Positions 32,162-62,927 of a stretch of DNA of 64,000 nucleotides are shown one piece after another. The position numbers and the translations under genes are program-made. The DNA is from Acanthochlamys bracteata (taxonomy: Eukaryota; Streptophyta; Magnoliopsida; Pandanales; Velloziaceae): assembly GCA_019914995.1 (NCBI GenBank), contig CM034134.1, positions 6,394,463 through 6,458,462 on the forward strand. Reading direction: 5' to 3'. Within the stretch, counting starts at the first letter, position 1. The number at the start of each line of letters is the position of its first letter. A model generated the notes under the pieces. The model made no database searches and had not been told where the DNA came from. It saw nothing but the letters and a program-made list of their open reading frames with translations.

Positions 32162-33791
32162 TGTTGGAAATACAAGAATAATTTTGATGATAACAAAGAA
32201 TTAAGAACTATAATTTATATAAGACTAATAATCTGAAAACAAGTCTGCAGGATTAGACAAACAAAGATCATTTAATTTACAAACAGACAAAAAAAATGCC
32301 ATTATACAAACCAAATCATTATGCTACTACATACTGGACAGAGGACAGCACATGGGACAGAGGATGCCACAGCCACATCACAGTCAGCTGCTCGACTGCT
32401 TGAAGCGGGACAGAGAACAGCATACGGGACAGAGTATGCCACAGCTAAATAACAGCCAACTGCTATGCTGCTACTGAAGCGGGACAGAGAACAACATACG
32501 GGACAGAGGATGCAACAGCCACATTACAGTCAGTTGTTTGGCTACTGAAGCATATGCAGACTTCTCTGTTTCGGGACAAACCCATATGTTCAACGGCAAC
32601 GAAGTTTTCCTTGCCTTCAAAAATCACCTGCACTCACAACGGACTGAAGGACCTCAAACAGAAGATTTACAAGAGCTAGAATCATCTTCACTTTCACACA
32701 AAAGGGAAGCTCAATAATCAAGGAAAGAAAGCAGTCAAAGTCCTTGATCAGTCAAGCGGTCAACCTGCACTGCATTTATTATGGACATACCATATCAACT
32801 CATCACCACACGAGATTCAAATGAAGCTTAGCTGAATTAAGTACTCAACCGTTGGCGAAATTCAAATCTCTTCACCGCATTCAATGCAACAAAGACTTTG
32901 CACAAACACAAATTGAAGAACCACTCTGGACAACACCATTCATTCTCTGACGTGAAGAACTGAAAGGCGCCAAAGAACGCGTTCCTCAACGGCTCTGCGA
33001 CAGAAAGATGTTCTATAAAAAGGAGTCACAAAGAACGAGGCGGTGTGGAGAAATAGAGAAAACAGGAGAGAAATATAAAGAAAATGTAGTAGAGAGAACC
33101 CAAGCAAAAACAGAGATATACAAGAACTCTACCACTCTACACAAAAAACCCCCACTGCGGTCCACGAACTTGACTACTCCACACAAACAAATCTTGCTGC
33201 AAATCATATCAAGAAATCTCTCAAGAATCTCTCCGATCATCTCATCCAATCATTGCTTAAACACTCAACATTCATGAGATAGATCCTGCGCTCAATACTT
33301 GTTTATTTTCTTGTAACTTGTCACCGATTTTAAAGGTGGTCTTTGCACACCGGTAAAAAAGCTCAGTGTAGAGTTTGGTGTAAGCTCTTAGATCTTGTAA
33401 TAGTGCTAGCAAATCAGCCCCGGGGACAAAGCGTGTCGGGAGGTAGTAGGGGTTGTCTTGGCGAAGAAACCCAGGTAGAGTATGTATGCTTGGCGAAGCA
33501 CTTCGCTCTAGGTGTATTTGTAGCTTATTAAAGGTCTAGTAAAGCTTTGGCTCTGGTGATAGAGCGACCGTGGATGTAGGCAAAGGGGTTTTGCCGAACC
33601 ACATTAAATACCCTGGGCACTACTACTTGTGTTACATCACAAGAAACACACTAACTCTTCTATTTGCGGTGTTTCAAGATTGACACACAGGCCTACCGCT
33701 GGCTCTCTGCCAAAGAGGATAACAAACTTAACGAAAATTTTTATAGACTAACTCCTCCCCTCTTGAGTTAATCTTGCAGGAATATCTAAAA
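32162..33791 (+). repeat. 5' LTR of nested Copia (1630 bp)
   Basis: Begins TGTTGGAAATAC and ends GAATATCTAAAA; the right LTR ends in the expected CTAACA. A TATA box (TATAAAAA) lies at 33014-33021, with the equivalent at 40105-40112. Three related GACAGAG-containing segments repeat at about 32336-32370, 32408-32440 and 32470-32510. Frames at 33008-33277 and 33343-33531 are inside the LTR and are not genes. Confidence 0.92.
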
Positions 33792-33793
33792 AT

Positions 33794-33805
33794 TGGTATC
33801 AGAGC
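33794..33805 (+). promoter_or_regulatory. Primer-binding site of nested Copia
   Basis: TGGTATCAGAGC, the perfect complement of the 3' end of plant initiator methionine tRNA, two bases after the 5' LTR. Confidence 0.93.
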
Positions 33806-33853
33806 AGGTCTCCAAAAATCAAAGGTCTAATAACCTTGAGGTAAAAGATCCTT

Positions 33854-36800
33854 ATGGCTAACCTTGTTCCTATAGCTTTTGAAGGTAGATCCTCCAACAG
33901 ACCACCACTCTTTGATGGAATAAATTATGGCTACTGAAAAACCAAGATGACAATCTTCATTCGAGCACAAGACTTCACACTATGGAAGATCATACGGGAC
34001 GGACATATCCTTCCAACCAAAACTGGTCCAGATGGGATACGTATCCCCAAGGCTAAACGAGAATACAATGATGAAGATAACAAGCTCATATCAATGAATG
34101 ACAGAGCTATGAACCTTCTGTATTGTGCGCTGGATCCTAATAAGTTCAACCAAATCAGTGCTTGCAACTCTGCCAAAGAAATATGGGGTCAGTTGGAGGT
34201 AACGCATAAAGGAACCACTCAAGTCAAGGAAACCAGAGTGAATCTGCTCATGCATGAGTATGAAAACTTCAGGATGAACCGAGGTGAGTCCATTTCTCAG
34301 ATGTTCACTAGATTTACTAACATTACAAATCCTCTGAAGAATTTAGGAAAAGTATTCAAACCTCAAGAATCAAATGGAAGATATTGAGAGTCATCTTTGC
34401 CAACATTTGGATCTAAAGTAGATGCCATAGAGGAAAATCTAACTTTTCCTCAAATGTCACTGGATGAACTGATTGGCAAGCTAATAGCCAAGGAACTATC
34501 TCTGAAGAAAACTGATGAACGTCCTGAAAGGATTGCATTAAAGATCAACGACCAGCAGGTAAGTGATTCTTCCTCTGATAAAGACATTGCACTCTTAACC
34601 CGTAAATTTAAAAGTTTTCTCAGAAGAAACAAGCTTAGAAAAAGAAGGGTTCCTGGAAGAACCAATAGAGGAGAGGATAGACAGGACACCAACTGCTTCA
34701 ACTGCAACAAGCCAGGACACTTCAAGAACGATTGTCCACTGCTCAAAAGATCTAAATACAAGGACAAAAGAAGAAAACGAGCTATGGCAACCTGGAGTGA
34801 TGAAGATGAAAGTTCATCAGAAGACAGTCAGACTGAGACAGAGAAAAATGAAAAAATCAACTTATGTCTGATGGCAGATCATGAAGATAACAATGAGGTA
34901 AATTCTACTGATTATGATGATTCTAATGAACGATTACAAGATGTTTTTGATGAACTGTATGCAAAATACCTACATGCCAAAACCGACTGCAAAACTATGA
35001 AGGTATGCATGCATAAATTTAAGGATGAAAACGAATGTCTGAAAAAGGAAATACTTGTGTTAAAAAATGTCTTAGAAGACAAACTTGATGCTATGAAAGA
35101 CACACTCCATGCAGATTATGATCATATTAACTCTAAACTATGTGCATTGCATATTGAAAATAAACGCTTGACTCAAATAAATGAAAAGCTTCATGTTAAA
35201 CTAAATGAATGTAAGACTGGAGAACTGACAAGATGCACAGAAAGCTCAAGCATAGACATGATAAAGAAAATTGCTGAGCTTGAGGAGTTGAATGAGGCAC
35301 TGAGTAGAGACGTGGATAGACTGTCATACCCCACCATTCCAGATCTTAAACCATTCATGACTGATTATACAAATATACACATAAAAGAAACTAAACTGAT
35401 GGAAGAAAATCAAAGACTGCTTCAAGAGAACAAAGCTCAGCAGAGTAAGAACCTCGAATTAGAAGCATCACTGGCAAGATTTGTTAATGAAAAGGATAGA
35501 CTAGATGCAATACTGGGAGCTCAACGCAGCCCATACAGAAAGGAAGGAATAGGATTCATTCCGGCATCTATGGCAACTGGTAAAGAAATTTCAAGGTATG
35601 ATCAGCCTTCCACAAGCCAATTAGGTATGGCAACAGCAAGGATGCAAAACAAAAATTTAATGTCCAAAGCACATACAGCAAACATATCTTACTCCATAAT
35701 ACCTTTTGTTAAATGCTTTCATTGTGGCAGAAAAGGGCATAATGTTTATTTATGCTGGTATAAAAAGAACACTAATAAAATTAAAATGATATGGGTTCCA
35801 AAAGGAACATATAACAGCACTAACTCTTGAGGACCCAAAGAAATTTGGGTACCTAAGCACTAAAGATTTTTTTTGCAGGAAGGAGAGGAGCTAACCCGAC
35901 TGACAAATAAATGGTACTTGGACAGCGGGTGCTCAAGACACATGACAGGAAATGAAAAATATTTCAGCAGTCTATAAAAACATATTGGCGGAAATGTGAT
36001 TCTTAGAGACAACAGTAAGTGCAAAGTAATAGGCGTAGGTAAAATAGGTAATCCCTCTTCCTTTTGCATAGAAAATATTCTTCATGTTAAAGGATTAAAA
36101 CATAACCTAATAAACATAAGCCAATTATGTGATAATGGATTTAAAGTCAATTTTGACAATCATTGCTGCTCAATTGTCAATCTGTCATCTGGAGAAGAAA
36201 TATTGAACGGAAAAAGGGAAGGTAATGTCTATGTACTCTATATTGATGACCTTCCTAACAACAAAATGTGTTTAGTAGCAAGTCAGCAGGAAAGTAGCTA
36301 GCTCTGGCACAGACGCTTAGGACACTGCAATATCAAGATCCTATCAAAATTGTCCAAGTTAAAACTAGTAAAAGGACTGCCTGAAGCCAACTATAGCTTG
36401 AATGAATTATGTGATGCATGTGCCAAAGGAAAACAAGTGAAGTCATCATTCAAGCACAAGCAAGTGATAATAACCAAGCAACCATTACAACTGCTACACA
36501 TGGATTTATTTGGACCAGCAAGAACAGCAAGCTTGAGAGGTAAGTATTACTGTCTAGTAATGGTAGATGATTATTCTTGTTTCGGTTGGGTTTACTTCTT
36601 AGCATACAAGAATGATGCACTGAAAATATTTATATGCTTTTTCAAAAAGATTCAAAAAGAACTAAACCTAAACATCTGTGCTATTAGAAGTGATAATGGC
36701 AAGGAATTTCAAAAATTTTATTTTAATGAATTTTGTGACTCTAATAGCTTAACACATAACTTCTCTGCTCCAAGAACTCCCCAACAAAATGGTGTAGTGG

Positions 36801-39007
36801 AAAGAAAAAATAGAGTGGTAGTAGAAATGGCACGAACCATGCTCATAGAACAGAACCTACCAAAATATTTTTGGGCTGAAACTGTTAATACTGCATGTCA
36901 TATTATTAACCGTGCATTCATTCGACCCATTCTTAAAAAGACTCCATATGAGCTTCTAAAAGGAAGAACCCCAAATATCAGTTATTTAAGAACCTTTGGA
37001 TGTAAATGTTTTATTCTCAACAACGGGAAAGATAATCTTGAAAAGTTTGATGCAAAAAGTGATGAAGGTATTTTTCTCGGTTACTCTTCTGCATCAAAAG
37101 CTTATAGAATTTTTAACAAACGAACCATGATTGTTCAAGAATCTATACATGTATTATTTAATGAGTCTAACAATGGGACGAGAAGAAATCGAGAACTAGA
37201 TGCAGGATCAGAAGAAGAAGAAGAGCTGTTCCCATCGACAGAAAAACAACAGATTATAGAGACCCAAACAGTAGACGAACAGTCAGTTGAAATAACAGAG
37301 GAAGGACAGACTCCTGGAATTCTACCTGATCAGACAGAAACTCGTGAGCAGACCAGCAAGACTTTCAAGTACAGATCCAGCCATCCACAAGAAAATATAC
37401 TAGGTGAAGTAAATGAAGGTACAAGAACCAGATCTTACTTTAAAAATAATTTCATGGAATATTCTGCATTTGTATCAAATCTAGAACCAAAATGCATAGA
37501 TGATGCATTGACAGATAGTTCATGGATCACTGCCATGCAAGAAGAATTAAATCAGTTTGAAAGAAATAATGTATGGCATCTTGTTAGAAAACCTCCAAAC
37601 AAATCCATCATAGGAACAAAATGGGTGTTTAGAAATAAATTAGATAAAAATGGCATCATAACTAGAAATAAAGCTAGACTAGTAGCTAAAGGATATAATC
37701 AGGAAGAAGGAATAGATTTTGATGAAACTTATGCTCCTGTTGCACGTCTTGAAGCCATTAGAATACTACTTGCTTTTGCATGTCACAAAGATTTCAAACT
37801 TTTTCAAATGGATATTAAAAGTGCATTTCTGAATGGTCTTCTGAAAGAAGAAGTTTATGTTGAACAACCTCCCGGGTTTGAAAACACAAGCTGTCCAAAT
37901 CATGTTTACAAATTGAATAAAGCTCTTTATGGTCTGAAACAAGCTCCCAGAGCTTGGTATGAAAGATTAAGCACATTTCTGATTGAAAAAGGTTTCAGTC
38001 GAGGTAAGATTGACTTAACCTTGTTCACATTGCATGAAGAAAATGACATGTTAATTGTACAAGTCTATGTAGATGACATAATATTTGGTGCCACTAATGA
38101 AAGACTATGCAGAAAATTTTCTGGCTTGATGAAAGAGGAGTTTGAAATGAGCTTGATGGGTGAACTAAATTATTTCCTTGGTCTACAAATTAAACAACTG
38201 AAAAATGACATCTTCATAAGTCAAAGCAAGTAAATTAAAGAGTTGATCAAGAAATACAGCATGGAAGGAAGTAAGGAGATGACCACTCCAATACCTATCT
38301 CTTGCAAACTGAACCGAGATGAGATAGGTAAAGTAATTGATCAGAAATTATATAGAGGTATGATTGGATCACTCCTTTATCTTACTGCCAGTAGACCGGA
38401 CATTCAATTCAGTGTATGTCTATGTGCTAGATTTCAAAGTGATCCAAAAGAGTCTCACATGATAGCTGTAAAACGAATCATTAGATACTTGGTAAGAACT
38501 AAGGAATTAGGATTATTCTATCCAAGAGGCTGTGAATTTAACTTATATGCCTATGCTGACGCTGATTTTGGTGGATGCAAGCTTGATAGAAAGAGCACAA
38601 ATGGCTCTTGTCAGTTTTTAGGAGGTTGTCTGATCTCATGGTGCTCTAGAAAACAAGCTTCAGTGGCGATGTCAACTGCCGAAGCAGAATACATAGCCGC
38701 TGGAAGTTGCTGCTCTCAGGTACTTTGGATAAAACAACAACTTCTTGATTTTGGCTGTGATTTTAAGAATGTGCCTATATTCTGTGACAATACAAGTACC
38801 ATTAAGTTAACCAAAAATCCCATTCAACACTCACGCACAAAGCACATAGATTTAAGACATCATTTCATTAGAGAGCATGTTGAATGCAATAATATAATGT
38901 TAAACTTTGTTAATTCTGAGAATCAACTAGCTGACATCTTCACTAAACCTTTAGGACTTGACTCGTTCACAAAAATCTGCCATGAGATAGGTTTATGTGT
39001 CATATAA
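33854..39007 (+). pseudogene. Copia gag-pol polyprotein, one frame with in-frame stops
   Basis: All segments share one reading frame from ATG 33854 to the stop at 39007 (about 1717 codons), interrupted only by stop codons at about 33933, 34385, 35828, 35861, 35974, 36299 and 38231. Domains in order: gag with PPLFDGINYGY (33890s) and a long coiled coil; zinc knuckle CFNCNKPGHFKNDC at 34694-34735; second knuckle CFHCGRKGHNVYLC at 35714-35755; aspartic protease LDSGCSRHMTG near 35918; integrase HRRLGH near 36310, HMDLFGP near 36498, RSDNGKEF near 36688 and [11 protein letters not shown] near 36780; reverse transcriptase [11 protein letters not shown] near 37672, [12 protein letters not shown] near 37804 and YVDD near 38068; RNase H with ADADFGG near 38555 and TKHIDLRHHFIRE near 38841. 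The first stop looks like a Trp codon changed to TGA. It cannot make a full protein. Confidence 0.95.
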
Positions 39008-39261
39008 CTATGCTCGCTCGCGTCTCTCAGACGCATTTAGATTTCATCATGATTACAATCGCCTGACAATGATTTGCGGTCGATAGAACTATAGTAAGCG
39101 ATCGTCACGTCTTGAGCACATGACCCAAATGACTCATACTAGGTCAGTATGCGCGTATAAGCTAACCCGATCAAGCTCCTCACAACTCGTCGTCTTCATT
39201 TCAAATTTCCTCTCCTCTCGAATCCTAAATCTCAAACCCTAAGCCAAATCCCAAAACCTCT

Positions 39262-39923
39262 GCAATGGCCAAGAAAAATCGGGAAACTCGCAAGAAGCTC
39301 GAGAATCGCCCACGACCATGACGAGAGATTCATCGGCAAGGAGAAATTCGAGAAATACAATGGGCAGCTAGCAATTCCACCGACGACAAGTGTTAATTTC
39401 GGCGACTTCAATTACTACGGACTTGAAGTGGATGAAATTTTTGAGGCACAAAGATGGACAAATGTTGATGATTGGTCGGAGAATTTTCGAGAGGAATGTG
39501 TCGAATGTTCTACGCCAATCTTCATCCGGATCGGAGGTTCCTCCGCTCGCACCATGGTTAATGGAATCGAGATCAACCCGAAGCGCGATCCATGTCCTTA
39601 ATGCTCGATCTACCTTACCGGGAGGAGATGCCGCCTGCCGGTGACTCCAAACTGAATTACCTCAAGCAGGCACTAGAAACAGAGGTTGTAACAAAGCCCC
39701 AATATGAGTCGGCTGCCAACTTACCTCTGTTGCCGAGAGCTCTCTGCCATGTCATCTCTAAAGTAATAGTTCCTCGGTCTGGAAGCCGCAACATTATCAC
39801 CAACTACGACGCCTTTCTGTTATGGAGGTTGATGAAGAAATTGCCAATCAACATCTGTGCGGTGATGTTGCACCACATGACGAGAGTCTCCAAGTCTGGG
39901 AGTAAGCATTTCCCATATCCTCA
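39262..39923 (+). pseudogene. Downstream ORF relic of Copia (putative plant transposon protein domain)
   Basis: Starts with an ATG at 39265 (MAKKNRETRKK), then frameshifts. HDERFIGKEKFEKY is at about 39315-39360. A FEAQRW block is near 39442, a FYANLHPD-type block near 39508-39535, and a long better-preserved frame at 39592-39923 carries ALCHVISKVIVPRS, FLLWRLMKKLPINI and SGSKHFPYPHV. These resemble the Transposase_32 / putative plant transposon protein family seen as an extra ORF in some plant elements. The last frame runs straight into LTR sequence at 39924, so its C-terminus was replaced by LTR-derived codons. Confidence 0.65.
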
Positions 39924-40891
39924 TGTATTAAGCACTCAACCGTTGGCAGCAAATTCAAATCTCTTCAACGTATTCAATTCAACAAAGACTTGCACAAACA
40001 CAGCTGAAGAACCACTGGACAACACCATTCCTTCTCTGACGTGAAGAACCGAAAGCAAGAATAAAGAACGCGTTCTCAACGGCTCCTGCACAGGAAAGAT
40101 GTTTTATAAAAAGGGAGTCACAGCAACGAGGAAATGGTGTGGAGAAATAGAGAAAAACAGGGAGAGAACATAAAGAAAACAGAAGTAGAGAGAACCCAAG
40201 CAAAAAATAGAGATATACAAGAACTCTACCACTCTACACAAAAACTCCCACTGCCGGTCACGAACTTGACTACTCCACACAAACAAATCTTGCTGCAAAT
40301 CATACTGAAGAAATCTCTCCGATCATATCATCTGAATCACTGCTTAAATACTCAACATTCATGAGATAGATCCTGCACTCAATACTTGTTTATTTTCTTG
40401 TAACTTGTCACTGACAGTTTAAAGGTGGTCTTTGCAGGCACGTAAAAAAAAGCTTCAGTGTAGAGCTTGGTGTAAGCTCTTAGACCTTGTAATAGTGCTA
40501 GCAAATCAGCCAGGGGGACAGGCGTGTCTAGGAGGCTGGTAGGGATTGTCTTGGCGAAGAAACCCGGTAGAGTATGTGTGCTTGGCGAAGCACTTCACTT
40601 TAGGTGTATTTGTAGCTTATTAAAGATCTAGTGAAGCTTTGGCTCTGTTGATAGAGCGACCGTGGATGTAGGCAAAGGGGTTTTGCCAAACCAAATTAAA
40701 TACCCTGAGCACTACTCTTTGTTACTTCTATCAGTAAACACACTAACTCTTCTCGTCATCAGTTACAAAGATTGACACACAAATTTATTAGCTCTCTCGC
40801 CAAGTAGGGATAACAAACTTAACGAAAATTTTTATAGACTAATTCAATTCACCCCTCCCCTCTTGAGTTAATCTTGCAGGAATATCTAACA
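39924..40891 (+). repeat. 3' LTR of nested Copia, 5'-truncated (968 bp)
   Basis: Aligns with 32838-33791 of the 5' LTR from ACTCAACCGTTGGC onward. The first ~676 bp of the LTR and the polypurine tract are absent; ORF relic sequence joins directly. By eye the two LTRs differ at roughly one base in ten to twelve. The end GAATATCTAACA is followed by GTTTT. Confidence 0.9.
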
Positions 40892-58004: not shown

Positions 58005-58009
58005 ACGCC
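58005..58009. repeat. 5' target-site duplication (ACGCC)
   Basis: ACGCC directly before LTR TGTTACG; identical to 62923-62927. Both lie in kinase exon sequence, and removing the element plus one copy joins the exon. Confidence 0.92.
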
Positions 58010-58380
58010 TGTTACGATATGGGCTTCTAGGAGAAAGACTTGGTCCAGGATTGGGTGATATCTGCAAGTTGTCATACCAAGGCCAATGCTTGCTTTTGAA
58101 AGAGTTTAGAGTTTAAGTCTCATTAGGAGTACTTGAGTTACATTAGAGAATTAGTGATAAGTGTCCAAATTAAGTTGAAGTCCTAATTTTAGTAGAGTTG
58201 TACTAGAACTAAAACTTTATTCATAAAAAAAAAGCTCTAGCTATAAATAAGAATGCTTGTACTCATTAAAAATTATAAAAGAAGAATTGAATTAGTTATT
58301 TTATTCTAGTCTTATCTTAGTTTTTTAATTTATCTAGTATAAGAATAGTCTTGCGGTTCGTGTGATCACGAATCATAATA
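58010..58380 (+). repeat. 5' LTR of gene-carrying retrotransposon (371 bp)
   Basis: TGTTACGATATGGGC...ACGAATCATAATA. TATA box TATAAATA at 58242-58249. Same length as the 3' LTR. Confidence 0.95.
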
Positions 58381-58382
58381 AT

Positions 58383-58394
58383 TGGTATCAAAAT
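58383..58394 (+). promoter_or_regulatory. Primer-binding-site-like sequence
   Basis: TGGTATCAAAAT two bases after the LTR; the first eight bases match the initiator-Met tRNA site TGGTATCAGAGC. Confidence 0.75.
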
Positions 58395-58432
58395 AGTCGA
58401 TCTATACCCTTAACTATTGCTGCTAGCTACGA

Positions 58433-58951
58433 TGTCCTCATCGTACCAACAAAAATTGCAATATCCACAATATTATCAACAATACTATCAAGGAGTTGCA
58501 TTCGCAACAGTATTGTAGTCATGATCCTTACCGGCAATACAATCTGCCACATGAGTTGTATCCACAATATTATTCTCATGATCCTTGTCAACAATATTAT
58601 TAGCAACAAGAGCCATATTCGCATCAGTATCATCAAGATCCTTATGAGCAATCCTATCAACAATATCAACATCAACATTTGCAATATCATAATTATGATG
58701 TTTATGAGCAATCCTATCAACCGTATGATCAGCATTCGTATTATGTTCATCATCAAGACATAGTACGGCAAGATTTTAGTGCACCACCACCACAAGCATA
58801 TACGATTTAGCCTGAACTTGAAGTAACTCCAGAAGGAAATGTTAACAACTCAGTAACTATGGAGAAAATTGATGCATGAATTGCTAGACTCGATTCAATA
58901 TGGGCTCGATATGAACGAGAACAGAGGCTGCTACAACGAAAACACCTTCAA
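58433..58951 (+). pseudogene. Q/Y-rich leader ORF relic (gag-like position)
   Basis: Starts MSSSYQQKLQYPQYYQQYYQ at 58433 and stops after 24 codons. The following sequence continues, with shifts, to encode Gln/Tyr/His-rich peptide with repeated YPQYY, HDPCQQYY and DPYEQSYQ blocks, then a charged stretch (ARLDSIWARYEREQRLLQRK at about 58884-58943). Plus-strand frame 58362-58763 and minus-strand frame 58427-58795 are low-complexity shadows of it. It occupies the position of gag N-terminus; function unknown. Confidence 0.5.
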
Positions 58952-59650
58952 GTGGCTTCTTCACAAAATTCTCTTCCAACTCACAATTTTCTTCCCACTC
59001 CAGCCACTCCTTCCATAGACGCCATCGTCTTCGCGCCGAAGCTTGATGAATTCAAACTTTCGCTACATCAGGCATCACTGCCGCCACCAACTGCTGACCC
59101 CCTCACCTCTCCTGCTCCCTCTACGGCCGTCCCTTTCATCACCACCACTTCGGAAGGTCCTGGATTCGAACTCTCAAAACTGCAATCACCGCCACCACCA
59201 CGAACGAGCAAAGCTAAGAATAACTATGGGGAGTCGAAGTCTTCAAGCCAGAAGCAAGCTGAGGAGGAATCTATTAACATACCGGTTAGCAAAATCTCAT
59301 CCAAAGCAATAAACGGCCACATGAGGAACCTTAAATTTGAATTAACTCGGGCGAATTCTGATATCTTTGACTGCTGCAATTCCGACTTGCAATACTATGC
59401 TCCGGCGGTCTCCTCCTTCTCAATTGAGTCGGAAGATCAGATCTCTGTTACATCTCGACTCACTTCACGGAGATCCAAGAAAGCACGGTCGAAGGTGAGT
59501 GTTTCCTCCACAGTGCTATTGAATCTGTCGGAGAATGTTAAGGAGGTGGATATAGCCCCCAGAGATGCAAAAATTTTTTTTGGAAGAATTACTGAATATG
59601 CAGAGCTGGAGACGATAATGACTCTTAGGGGTACTCCAGGTTCTAGAATA
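58952..59650 (+). pseudogene. Unidentified captured or leader coding segment
   Basis: The longest frame in the element (58952-59731) begins here. Residues 1-85 are Pro/Ser/Thr-rich (LPPPTADPLTSPAP, LQSPPPPRTSK). Residues ~95-215 (from about 59270) are ordinary globular-looking sequence with SSKAINGHMRNLKFE, FSIESEDQISVTSRL and VKEVDIAPRDAK, which I do not recognise. The frame then reads into the ABCG fragment without a stop, so the two are fused. The source is unknown; it may be a further captured gene. Confidence 0.4.
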
Positions 59651-59654
59651 TCTC

Positions 59655-60345
59655 CTTGGCTAATAACCGTAGCCGGGGAGAACTTGATTGGACTTTCATT
59701 GTTAAGTGACACAAGGATGCACTTTGCATAGCTTCGACTGCATGATAGGATGCGAATGGAGGAGACGAAAACTCTGGTTGAGTGCACAATTGTGAAGGCG
59801 GGCCTTCGAGATTGTGCTAATATGGTGATTGATAACGGGCATTCTATCTTCAGTGGAGGAGAGAAGTAGGGAGTTAGCACTGCTTTTGAGACCCTTATGA
59901 AACCAAGAAAATTGTTCCAAGATGAACCCACGAGTTCTCTTGATAAAGCATCAGTATTCTTCGTGAGACGAACATTGGAAAGTCTACCTAGAGGAAGAAA
60001 TTATTTTGGGGAATTTTCAGAGGATTTTGAGTTCTTGACGCAGACTAGCTTTCATTGCCCCTCTTTGCGGAGTTCAGCAGATAAGTCTTTGTGGTACATC
60101 AACTTTGATAAAGGTAATGACTATCTGCATTGTTGTGACTGTCTGCAGGAGAAAGATTTATCTACACATGGGAACTAGGCATACCTCAATTCTAGCAAGA
60201 ATAGCAAATGCTCTCCTTGTCTTTAGGCTTTGTTGCTTCCATGTCTAGTGGCAGGTTTCCTTCAATTGTAGAAGGCTGTCAGAGGCCGTCCAATGTCATA
60301 CGTCAGCTTCCACTATTGGGCACTTAGTGAGCTGAGACAATACTC
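59655..60345 (+). pseudogene. Captured ABCG half-transporter fragment (ABCG11-like)
   Basis: Nucleotide-binding domain pieces: GENLIGLSLLSDTR (for DDNLIGTLTVRET) at about 59673-59714, LRLHDRM near 59733, then the ABC signature region SGGEK near 59853 followed by a stop, and KLFQDEPTSSLDKASVFFV (Walker B and D-loop) at 59908-59964. The segment between the D-loop and the YFGEFSE block (60003), normally carrying the H-loop and HQPSSE, is missing. Transmembrane-domain pieces follow: a TVC-IYL--GT--SILAR equivalent at about 60135-60205, a SGRFPSIVEG equivalent near 60247, and MSYVSFHYWAL at 60293-60325. Plant ABCG11-type proteins export cuticular lipids at the plasma membrane. It is only a decayed mosaic. 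Confidence 0.85.
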
Positions 60346-60855
60346 GATTTCTGTTACATTCAAACTCTATATGCCGGGAGCGAACAGAGGAAACAGCCTC
60401 CTTTCATTCGATAATTATGGCATTTGCAGCAAGCATACTATTACAATTGATAGTCTAATCAGTGGAAAAGTTAAGGTCAGTAGCGGAAGAATTACTAAAG
60501 TGACCCAAGGAGAGTGTCAAACTAAATCATCATACAGGGACCTTGTTGCGAACCTTGGAGGTGCTTGGCTTATGCCTCGATTGATAGTCAAGCTCATCTT
60601 GGTGAACCTGGAAGAGTCGAATGGGGAGGATTACATTCAGGTACTAACGCTACTACTGCTGCAAAGGAGAAAGCTTACGTTGATCATGGAATTTGGGGAG
60701 GCTTAATCCCAAAAAATACCTTGAGTACAAGTGAGTTGGGAGGTCTTCTAGATACAGGAGTACTTGCGCTAAAGATTTTCATGTACCCAGTGAGAATGAA
60801 TTGACTTTCCTATGACATATGCAACTCATGTCAGCGAGAGGATAAATTTGCTGCA
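60346..60855 (+). pseudogene. ALN: Captured allantoinase fragment
   Basis: NSLLSFDNYGICSKHTI at about 60392-60442 matches the region after the N-terminal signal anchor. ISGKVKVSSGRI is near 60459-60495 and WLMPRLI near 60567-60590. After a shift, AHLGEPGRVEWGGLHSGTNA follows at 60589-60648 (usually HLDEPGRTEWEGFPSGT, metal-binding region). The frame then jumps directly to YVDHGIWGGLIP at 60676-60711, omitting about 30 residues (GGITTLVDMP... in the family). LLDTGVLALK is near 60747 and a DFPMTYATHVSE equivalent at 60803-60838. The family enzyme opens the allantoin ring in ureide catabolism. Dead fragment. Confidence 0.88.
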
Positions 60856-61610
60856 ATTTGGGACTATGCATAATGAGTATTACTTCACAGATCCGAAGGA
60901 ACCTTATGCTGTTGAGTCTGTGATATACCATACTGAAGCCTATGATGTCACCATAGTCTGCGAGAGCACACCATTATTTAGGAGATCTTGGAAGATTAGT
61001 GGCCTTGGAGTGAAGATCATCATCTCGGAAGGAGGCTCTGTTGAAATCTCTCCAGAAGGCACTTGTATTTCCACAAGACCCCAAACAAGGAAAAGTCTCA
61101 CCGAGGAACTTGCCACAAGATTGAGGTAATTCAACGATATGAATGCTTGAGAGCTAGCAAGGCAACCTCTGCATGGGGTCTGGAGGCTCACGTTCCTTTC
61201 CTGGATAAGGACTTCATCAATGCTGCCAGGAGCATTGATCCCGAAGAGAGCATGATAAAGTCTGGTCTCAGAAGGATTGAGAAGTGGATGCTAAGGAAGG
61301 CTTTTGCTGCTGAGGAAAACCATCCCTGACCAAGCATATCCACTGCAGACAGAAGGAGCAATTTAGCAGTAGTGTTAGCGATAGTGGGATTGAGGGACTG
61401 AAGATGCATGCAGCAGATAAGATAATGCGGCATTCCAAAACTATCTATCTAGATGACATGTCAACAACAGAAGAAGCTTACTACTACAAGATGATCCTTG
61501 AAAGGTTTTTCCCTAAAAACTCAGCAAGACTGACAGTCCCAAGAGGACCAAGTGTGGCTTGTAACACAGTTAATTTTATTAAATGGGGCATCTGCAAAAT
61601 TTAAAGTGCA
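60856..61610 (+). pseudogene. Captured asparagine synthetase fragment (synthetase domain)
   Basis: FGTMHNEYYFTDPKE at about 60857-60901 and VIYHTEAYDVT at 60919-60951 are the family's LGTVHHEFHFT and VIYHIETYDVT blocks. GLGVKIIISEGGS near 61003-61040 stands for the SLGVKMVLSGEGSDE loop but lacks the conserved SGEGSDE motif. In another frame, CHKIEVIQRYECLRASKATSAWGLEAH and VPFLDKDFINAARSIDPE lie at 61108-61240, and RIEKWMLRKAF at 61269-61301. C-terminal pieces AYYYKMILERFFPKNSARLTVP at 61464-61530 and GPSVACNT at 61539 complete it. The N-terminal glutaminase domain is absent. Confidence 0.92.
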
Positions 61611-61624
61611 GTCCTTCATGATTT

Positions 61625-62000
61625 AGGAACACAAGGTCCCTGGCGTGAATTGAATACTTACAATATACATGACACCAGAAGATGGAAGGATTTAAACCCA
61701 AAATGTGTGCTCCATGTTTATAGGGATTTTGCTGCAACATGTGACAGGTCCTTAGGCAGGGATGTTTATCTAGTTGTGTGTTCTGTTATTTGAGTACATG
61801 GAGCAGTTTGATCCTGATGATAATTATTTTAGAGAGTGTGGTGATCTTCTTGATCAAACCTATGAATCTTGGATAGTCCATGGAACTGGTGCTTGCTGCT
61901 GTTGCCTCTGGCCTACTGTACTCCAAGCTACAACAGCAAGGGCTCAGCAGCTTAGTGACCATCCTCATGCAAGTAAATGCAAAACTAAAATTTCTAAACA
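61625..62000 (+). pseudogene. Captured non-lysosomal glucosylceramidase (GBA2-type) fragment
   Basis: [20 protein letters not shown] (across a frame) is at about 61650-61708 and VYRDFAAT at 61716-61740; the family reads [29 protein letters not shown]. Then EYMEQFDPDD at 61792-61820, LLDQTYESWIVHGTGA at 61846-61892, and CCCLWPTVLQATTARAQQLSDH at 61896-61960. The family hydrolyses glucosylceramide at the cytosolic face of membranes. In this copy the DGLIENDGFPDQTYD catalytic-acid segment is altered. Dead fragment. Confidence 0.85.
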
Positions 62001-62300
62001 GCAAGCATTCACCACTGCAGAGGTAATTTTTCTTGCTGGTTGCTCAGATGAAGGAATTCGGAATTGGTTTCAGACCCCTGAGGCTATCCTAGTTAGATTT
62101 TTTATGCATGAACTCTTTATTCATAGAGATATGCATGAGCTTGTTTTACAGGTATGCTCCTCATTCATTGAAAGCCTTCATCCTGATGGGTTCCGAGGAG
62201 GCTCACAAGGACAGCAAGATTGTCAACATGCTTATGATGCAAGAGAGTTCCACGAGGAAGCAAGCATTACTTTTGCTACGTAATACCAGGATGAGTTGCT
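62001..62300 (+). pseudogene. Unidentified captured segment with intron-like junction
   Basis: Open in two frames. One continues from the glucosylceramidase fragment to 62283; the other (about 62149-62280) reads YAPHSLKAFILMGSEEAHKDSKIVNMLMM. The junction GCTTGTTTTACAG at 62142-62154 followed by GTATGCTCC looks like an intron acceptor, so part of the segment may be retained intron. The source gene is not recognised. Confidence 0.35.
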
Positions 62301-62551
62301 ACCATAGGCCTCTTCAGACAACACATTCCATTGCTCAGAGCCCTTTTCCCTCCCTTCCAGAAATACATCACCAAGGGTTTTCTTTTTGGTCTATAAAGTG
62401 ATGACATTGGTGGTAACAACTTTTGTTTATGTTTTGTTGTAGATGTTTGGGTGATATCTGGTCAATGTGCTTTGGTGTTAGGTACTCCAACAGGTATCCT
62501 AACCATTGCCGTCAACCTTGAGGACAAGGTTGGTTTTCAGGAGGGGTGGAA
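62301..62551 (+). promoter_or_regulatory. 3' non-coding region and polypurine tract of the element
   Basis: Ends with CTTGAGGACAAGGTT (62517-62531) and the polypurine tract CAGGAGGGGTGGAA (62538-62551) directly before the 3' LTR. It is the element's own replication sequence and not captured DNA. Confidence 0.8.
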
Positions 62552-62922
62552 TGTTACGATATGGGCTTTTAGGAGAAAGACTTGGTCCAGGATTGGGTGA
62601 TATCTGCAAGTTGTCCTACCAAGGCCCATGCTTGCTTTTGAAAGAGTTTAGAGTTTTAAGTCTCATTAGGAGTACTTGCGTTATATTAGGGAATTAGTGT
62701 TAAGTGTCCAACTTAGGTTGAAGTCCTAACTTTAGTAGAGTTGTACTAGAGCTAAAACTTTACTCATAAAGAAAGAGCTCTAACTATAAATAAGAATGTT
62801 TGTACTCATTAAAGATTATAAAAGAAGAATTGAATTAGTTATTTATTCTAGTCTTATCTTAGTTTTTTAATTTATCTAGCATTAGAATAGTCTTGCGGTT
62901 CGTGTGATCACGAATCATAACA
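62552..62922 (+). repeat. 3' LTR of gene-carrying retrotransposon (371 bp)
   Basis: TGTTACGATATGGGC...ACGAATCATAACA, with TATAAATA at 62785-62792. Followed by target duplication ACGCC. Confidence 0.95.
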
Positions 62923-62927
62923 ACGCC
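62923..62927. repeat. 3' target-site duplication (ACGCC)
   Basis: Identical to 58005-58009. Confidence 0.92.

Follow-up and report, generated by a model that had tools for sequence, protein, structure and literature searches.

The window analyzed here is the whole 64,000-nucleotide stretch of the Acanthochlamys bracteata genome at C9:6394463-6458462, in which a complete long terminal repeat (LTR) retrotransposon spans positions 58010-62922. Two LTRs of 371 bp each, differing at 20 of 370 sites (94% identity; Kimura two-parameter distance, K2P, 0.056), enclose an interior of 4171 bp. Both LTRs begin with TG; the 3' LTR ends in CA, and the 5' LTR ends in TA through one change. The element is flanked on both sides by the 5-bp target site duplication (TSD) ACGCC, a length within the 4-6 bp looked for. 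A primer-site-like sequence, TGGTATCAAAAT, which we take to be of the initiator-methionine tRNA (tRNA-iMet-like) type, lies at 58383-58394, and a polypurine tract at 62539-62551 directly precedes the 3' LTR. An earlier reading of this DNA from its letters alone (the sequence-only reading) had described the two 371-bp LTRs, the 5-bp TSD, the primer-site-like sequence and the polypurine tract, and all were found again. The features of the element are as follows.

58005..58009, no strand: left target site duplication ACGCC, a flank repeat
58010..58380, plus strand: 5' LTR, 371 bp, from LTR alignment and genome matches
58383..58394, plus strand: primer-site-like sequence TGGTATCAAAAT; TGGTATCAGAGC in 5 of 12 copies
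58432..59570, plus strand: element-own 5' region with a degraded Q/Y-rich N-terminal frame and a P/S/T-rich frame, common to sister copies; frame broken in the window
59570..60323, plus strand: spliced ABCG transporter fragment, up to 8 exon pieces, from source alignment; borders approximate
60324..60852, plus strand: spliced allantoinase fragment, from profile and source alignment; borders approximate
60853..61585, plus strand: spliced asparagine synthetase fragment, 5 introns absent in its core, from profile and source alignment
61580..62089, plus strand: GH116 glucosylceramidase (GBA2) fragment, intron absent at 62060/62061 and a coding deletion of ~340 bp at 61997, from profile and source alignment
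62090..62178, plus strand: linker between the GBA2 and POR pieces, no source found, from its position between aligned pieces
62179..62382, plus strand: protochlorophyllide reductase (POR) fragment, the fifth host gene, from its match to the host LPOR gene
62383..62538, plus strand: 3' tail common to family copies, from alignment among copies
62539..62551, plus strand: polypurine tract, from sequence and pattern matches
62552..62922, plus strand: 3' LTR, 371 bp, from LTR alignment and genome matches
62923..62927, no strand: right target site duplication ACGCC, a flank repeat

Five unrelated host genes are represented in the interior, all in sense orientation: an ABCG transporter, allantoinase, asparagine synthetase (AS), GBA2 and POR. 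The sequence-only reading had correctly named the first four and their orientation, but had missed POR. Pfam profiles matched allantoinase (ALN_composite, 1.3e-7), AS (Asn_synthase, 1.4e-15) and GBA2 (DUF608/GH116, 1.2e-18) in the open reading frames (ORFs) of the window, all passing cut-offs, and the ABCG piece was identified by exon alignment to a host gene (L054) that matches ABC_tran and TIGR00955. The POR piece, at about 62179-62382, is 81% identical over 194 bp (E 1e-46) to a host gene (L059) that is named by the LPOR profile, and a PDB match also identified it as POR. The LPOR profile found no match in the window ORFs themselves, but did match 3 of the 107 sense ORFs from the family of copies described below. 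These resemblances are not due to chance, because the pieces match their sources exon by exon and have sister copies at 87-90% elsewhere in the genome. The element thus carries exon-only, sense fragments of several unrelated host genes, as expected of a Bs1-like element.

For copies and sources, 195.5 Mb in 557 contigs were searched, and the best candidates only were scored (40 of 178 for the LTR, 40 of 72 for the interior). In BLAST alignments, 12 introns are absent, with pieces that abut in the element being split in the source: five in AS (source gaps of 79-91 bp), six in ABCG (larger gaps) and one in GBA2 (732 bp). Spliced alignment, whose over-extended outermost pieces were left out of the intron count, placed GT..AG introns at 15 positions (ABCG 7, allantoinase 2, AS 5, GBA2 1), and a profile search located the allantoinase source in two pieces at C1:4489892-4490261. 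Intron loss was also observed in copies C14 (source C5:7.943, 215-bp gap) and C9_3.52 (source C1:1.34 Mb, 632-bp gap). The missing source introns therefore indicate that the pieces derive from spliced mRNA, as the sequence-only reading had supposed; aligning the interior to the source genome, as it had recommended, revealed the missing introns. At 61997, GBA2 lacks a further ~340 bp. This is an in-frame deletion inside the captured piece rather than an intron, because the source there is one open exon, and the deletion is common to the window, C14, C6, C9_2.96 and C13. A retained intron in the GBA2 pieces of C8 and C3 was considered and rejected, the source being one 425-aa exon there.

The absence of introns contradicts capture at the DNA level, in which Pack-type capture, Helitron-like filler or a segmental duplication would have been bracketed by LTRs later. 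Multi-gene chimeras are common in Pack-type and Helitron-like elements, which counts in favor of such an origin, but the element retains intact LTR ends, TSD, primer site and polypurine tract, and its sister copies have transposed together with the fragments they enclose; we consider this explanation extremely improbable. Likewise, no intron-bearing block of these genes was found in the best-candidate genome searches, and the element cannot be put down to an ordinary duplication of neighboring genes, an outcome on which the sequence-only reading would have been abandoned.

Searching the genome for other copies with the 371-bp LTR, another check proposed at the outset, showed that the element belongs to a family. 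The LTR search scored the best 40 of 178 candidate matches, and 12 two-LTR copies were examined, with LTR K2P ranging from 0.006, in the youngest copy C16, to 0.204; a thirteenth, C9_6.67 (L051), has only a 137-bp LTR match pair and was left out of the twelve. An exact 5-bp TSD is present at the LTR edges in 8 of these 12 copies (one more is doubtful and three have none), and TGGTATCAGAGC is the exact primer-site-like sequence in five. Pattern matches genome-wide comprised 36 5' ends and 40 3' ends, compared to 0 in the controls. Paired copies with TSDs thus make up one repeat family, which disposes of the concern that the LTRs might be parts of unrelated repeats.

The copies carry differing mixtures of host-gene pieces, sometimes joined in one long ORF. 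Of the 11 other copies, 8 hold sequence that matches the GBA2-POR region of the window element, and C16, C9_3.52 and C15 hold none; an allantoinase-AS fusion is common to the window, C2:7.24 and C18:3.05. The last two are truncated or relic copies, because LTRs are missing: the sequence retrieved for C2:7.24 shows no 5' LTR, and no LTR of C18:3.05 matches. The ABCG piece was found in none of the other copies among the matches listed (best 40 of 72). Because other copies share both the allantoinase-AS fusion and the GBA2-POR tail, and the ABCG piece was seen in none of them, the captures appear to have been stepwise, with the window element as one member of a family of mosaics. Over the shared stretch of GBA2, synonymous divergence (dS) is 0.19 between the window and the C2 paralog, 0.43 between the window and the C1 paralog and 0.44 between the two paralogs. 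Because the window piece is nearer to the C2 paralog than the paralogs are to each other, its capture postdates their duplication, and it predates insertion of the element (LTR K2P 0.056). The relic at C18:3053000-3057000 (L060), which holds the allantoinase-AS fusion and no recognizable LTR, also contains a 153-bp insertion matching other small repeats in the loci examined.

Profile scans were applied to 199 ORFs (107 sense and 92 antisense) from the 12 copies; ORFs of <60 aa and ORFs overrunning the interior by >60 nt were excluded, apart from three that were added back. At E 0.01 or better, nine Pfam families were detected in the sense ORFs: DUF608 (6 ORFs), SecY (3), Nucleotid_trans (2), U-box (2), Asn_synthase, RRM_1 and ALN_composite, and weakly TTI1 and TIP49. 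NCBIfam added LPOR (3 ORFs), EF-1alpha and FGAM synthase. The U-box, RRM, SecY and nucleotide-sugar transferase pieces of other copies bear the names of their profiles, and two further pieces are presumably methionine S-methyltransferase-like and aldehyde-dehydrogenase-like. No host family was matched by the 92 antisense ORFs, in which a phage scaffolding model gave one marginal hit (E 0.002). This strand bias bears on whether processed pseudogenes of different genes, made by long interspersed nuclear elements (LINEs), might have inserted serially into an LTR element. Such pseudogenes would likewise be intron-free, but should be randomly oriented, each with a poly(A) tail and a target duplication of its own, and the finding of host matches in sense ORFs only, with window fragments that abut without poly(A) and joins that keep frame, makes this origin very improbable.

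No Pfam match to the gag, protease, reverse transcriptase/RNase H or integrase of an autonomous Ty1/copia or Ty3/gypsy element was obtained in the 199 ORFs of the 12 copies, and the earlier claim that the element has no polymerase or integrase is borne out both for the window ORFs and for this larger set. For the single-LTR loci L046-L049 and L053, which lay outside the Pfam scan, only ORFs of at least 110 aa were listed. PDB searches of P0001, P0002 and one L020 ORF returned 0 matches. Two kinds of Q/Y/P/H-rich N-terminal frame start right after the primer site, one beginning MSSLYQQQ- (L027:1551 onwards, L020, L052 and L034) and the other of the MANSASVDPYL type (L044 and L043); both kinds may belong to the element itself or stem from a much older capture.

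The sources of the window pieces are positioned on C1/C2, C15/C10 and C2, and those of other copies on C5/C3, C19/C20, C18, C6/C4 and C4. Based on the LTR anatomy, the loss of introns, these dispersed sources, the sense orientation, the shared fusions and a 6-nt string at one join (the AS-GBA2 join falls in AATGGG, which is present in both sources), we favor, with a probability of about 0.85, a non-autonomous LTR retrotransposon that was reverse-transcribed in trans, with template switching into spliced host mRNAs. Element RNA would be packaged and reverse-transcribed by enzymes that a helper supplies; during minus-strand synthesis, the enzyme would jump to a co-packaged spliced host mRNA and then back to the element RNA, leaving a sense, intron-free host piece between the LTRs. 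Products that keep the LTR ends, primer site and polypurine tract could replicate again, so that pieces accumulate, and captured pieces may subsequently be trimmed by internal deletions and recombined between copies.

The sequence-only reading had allowed either template switching or read-through capture. In the latter, the element would have inserted beside each gene in turn, and the read-through transcript would have been spliced and packaged, a process described for plant LTR elements (PMC13317346), and three of the sources (ABCG, POR and allantoinase) fall in one ~135-kb stretch of C1. However, the fragments consist of internal exons truncated on both sides, follow one another within the interior and come from several chromosomes; the AS-GBA2 join falls inside exons of both genes; and no copy was found adjoining a source gene in a search that was not exhaustive. 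Read-through thus fits less well and is, in our estimation, unlikely, while template switching agrees better with the dispersed sources and the AATGGG join. Two points weigh against template switching in trans: the test for a string shared between both sources covers the AS-GBA2 join only, and the autonomous gag/pol partner with the same LTR, which the sequence-only reading had advised looking for, did not turn up, leaving the helper an assumption. Two helper candidates were rejected. The LTRs of a copia element in the window (~32.8-40.9 kb), of ~970 bp, do not match the family LTR, and when the 36 and 40 pattern matches were paired by eye, no element of at least 8 kb was found, the longest being ~6.5 kb (C9:3633900-3640403). 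The proximity of three of the five sources on C1 (ABCG, L054, C1:4356272-4359452; POR, L059, C1:4406438-4406631; allantoinase, at the position given above) may reflect chance or a local capture effect, and the captures seemingly took place at different times.

The joins between fragments also appear to be biased in frame. Joins were scored only where the fragments on both sides could be named, although unnamed segments can sit between them, and 9 of 10 are in the native frame, compared to one third expected. In the window these are the joins of the own 5' region to ABCG, ABCG to allantoinase, allantoinase to AS and AS to GBA2; some of the flanking stretches are short, and their frame was assigned by visual comparison with host translations (the ABCG end, the last 18 allantoinase residues and the first GBA2 residues). 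In C9_2.96, one 621-codon frame holds SecY to GBA2 and GBA2 to POR in frame (POR by eye against L059), and C9_3.52 has a 986-codon chimeric ORF with three in-frame joins, linking the own 5' region, FGAM synthase, EF-1alpha and sugar transferase. In all 12 copies, none of 300 dinucleotide shuffles gave a sense ORF as long as the longest real one, the frames of C9_2.96, C14 and C6 reach 97-98 nt into the 3' LTR, and the GBA2 pieces of C14 and C6 contain 0 stops in 289 codons, where ~6 are expected (P 0.001). The amino-acid constraint on GBA2 appears relaxed to varying degrees, because dN/dS against the source in nine copies is 0.92 (window), 1.03, 0.76, 0.78, 0.51, 0.58, 0.32, 0.40 and 0.42, compared to 0.08 between host paralogs.

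These results suggest, but do not prove, a filter for open frames. An RNA whose open frame extends towards the 3' LTR might be favored, for instance by escaping nonsense-mediated decay or by translation aiding packaging, a step in which we have less confidence than in the switching itself. Several observations count against such a filter. The U-box to GBA2 join is out of frame in the old copy C8 (LTR K2P 0.185), and in the window GBA2 and the first stretch of POR differ by one frame, and the element's own hybrid frame is broken. The shuffle null takes no account of open frames already present in captured exons. C14 and C6 are 97% identical and not independent, and the remaining seven copies that were tested showed no significant depletion of stops in GBA2 (P 0.13-0.63). 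For the Q/Y-rich 5' frame, purifying selection (dN/dS 0.28-0.57) was considered and rejected, as it failed the shifted-frame control: the medians (0.62 against 0.55 and 1.14) do not place the frame below the control. It is close to an even chance that the anatomy and mRNA origin are as proposed with no frame filter at all, the long ORFs reflecting young age and the exons' own open frames. The relaxed dN/dS in all nine copies is consistent with this, as are the stops and frameshifts of several copies and a stop depletion significant only in C14/C6, but the share of native joins is not (~4e-4, by hand arithmetic with joins taken as independent). We therefore propose only tentatively, and at distinctly less than even odds, that this helper-dependent LTR lineage may act as a mobile exon-fusing machine, in which host mRNA pieces are added in sense and in frame, since escape from decay, or packaging, would require an RNA whose open frame extends towards or into the 3' LTR. 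Amino-acid content would be nearly free while openness is kept, the Q/Y-rich frame may gather RNA, and long chimeric proteins would be spread in the genome. If true, the frame bias would tie RNA quality control to gene fusions that retrotransposons can spread.

The closest known system is maize Bs1, described as a non-autonomous LTR element with exon-only fragments of ATPase, glucanase and xylan endohydrolase genes and a hybrid frame (PMC13317346, PMC4717578, PMC7264820). By these descriptions, Bs1 is like the window element in its LTRs, its lack of autonomy and its exon-only pieces of several host genes, but differs in host and sequence and holds three genes in one element, whereas here five genes occur in one copy and the family has at least 12 two-LTR copies, whose gene sets differ. 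We place it with the Bs1 kind, but as a family of mosaics rather than a single element. Host fragments inside LTR elements are also reported from rice (672 captured genes) and sorghum (1343) (PMC3726574), and from maize, where, under the conditions of that survey, none of 425 intact LTR elements with gene fragments combined two or more standard nuclear genes, unlike the family described here (PMC2774510). Terminal-repeat retrotransposons in miniature (TRIMs) and large retrotransposon derivatives (LARDs) are described as having LTRs, a primer site and a polypurine tract without pol, as in this family, and a soybean TRIM captured kinase-gene exons without introns (PMC4717578). Chimeras of Veju and BARE-2 in Triticeae have been attributed to abnormal template switching inside the particle, with other retrotransposons or unknown DNA as partners in that account, whereas the partners here are a series of host mRNAs (PMC13317346). 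Multi-gene capture by plant LTR elements has been seen as a rarity exemplified by Bs1, and this compact genome holds a whole lineage of such mosaics. Bs1 is a low-copy element, and within limited literature name searches we know of no described family like this one. Compared to TRIMs, the family has longer LTRs and interiors, multi-gene interiors and long chimeric ORFs. With sources, introns and joins readable from one assembly, the capture mechanism becomes testable: the order, frame and shared strings of the joins can be scored, and comparison with source paralogs can date the captures.

Three further observations were made on related sequences. The copia-type element in the window, at ~32834-40890, has LTRs that are 86% identical and carries gag with a zinc knuckle, integrase and reverse transcriptase frames at 34388-39007. 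A second multi-copy group shares two interior pieces (~70-89%) with the family, but not the LTR (C5:7270502-7271681 (L063), C2:10427017, C15:1198805, C1:4012279, C1:9619859 and C3:5563679); L063 has short flanking repeats only, and the group may consist of related elements with other termini. Finally, at C9:5427809-5428535 and C4:7169037-7169794, pairs of 5'- and 3'-end matches lie ~0.7 kb apart and represent very short, TRIM-like versions of the family.

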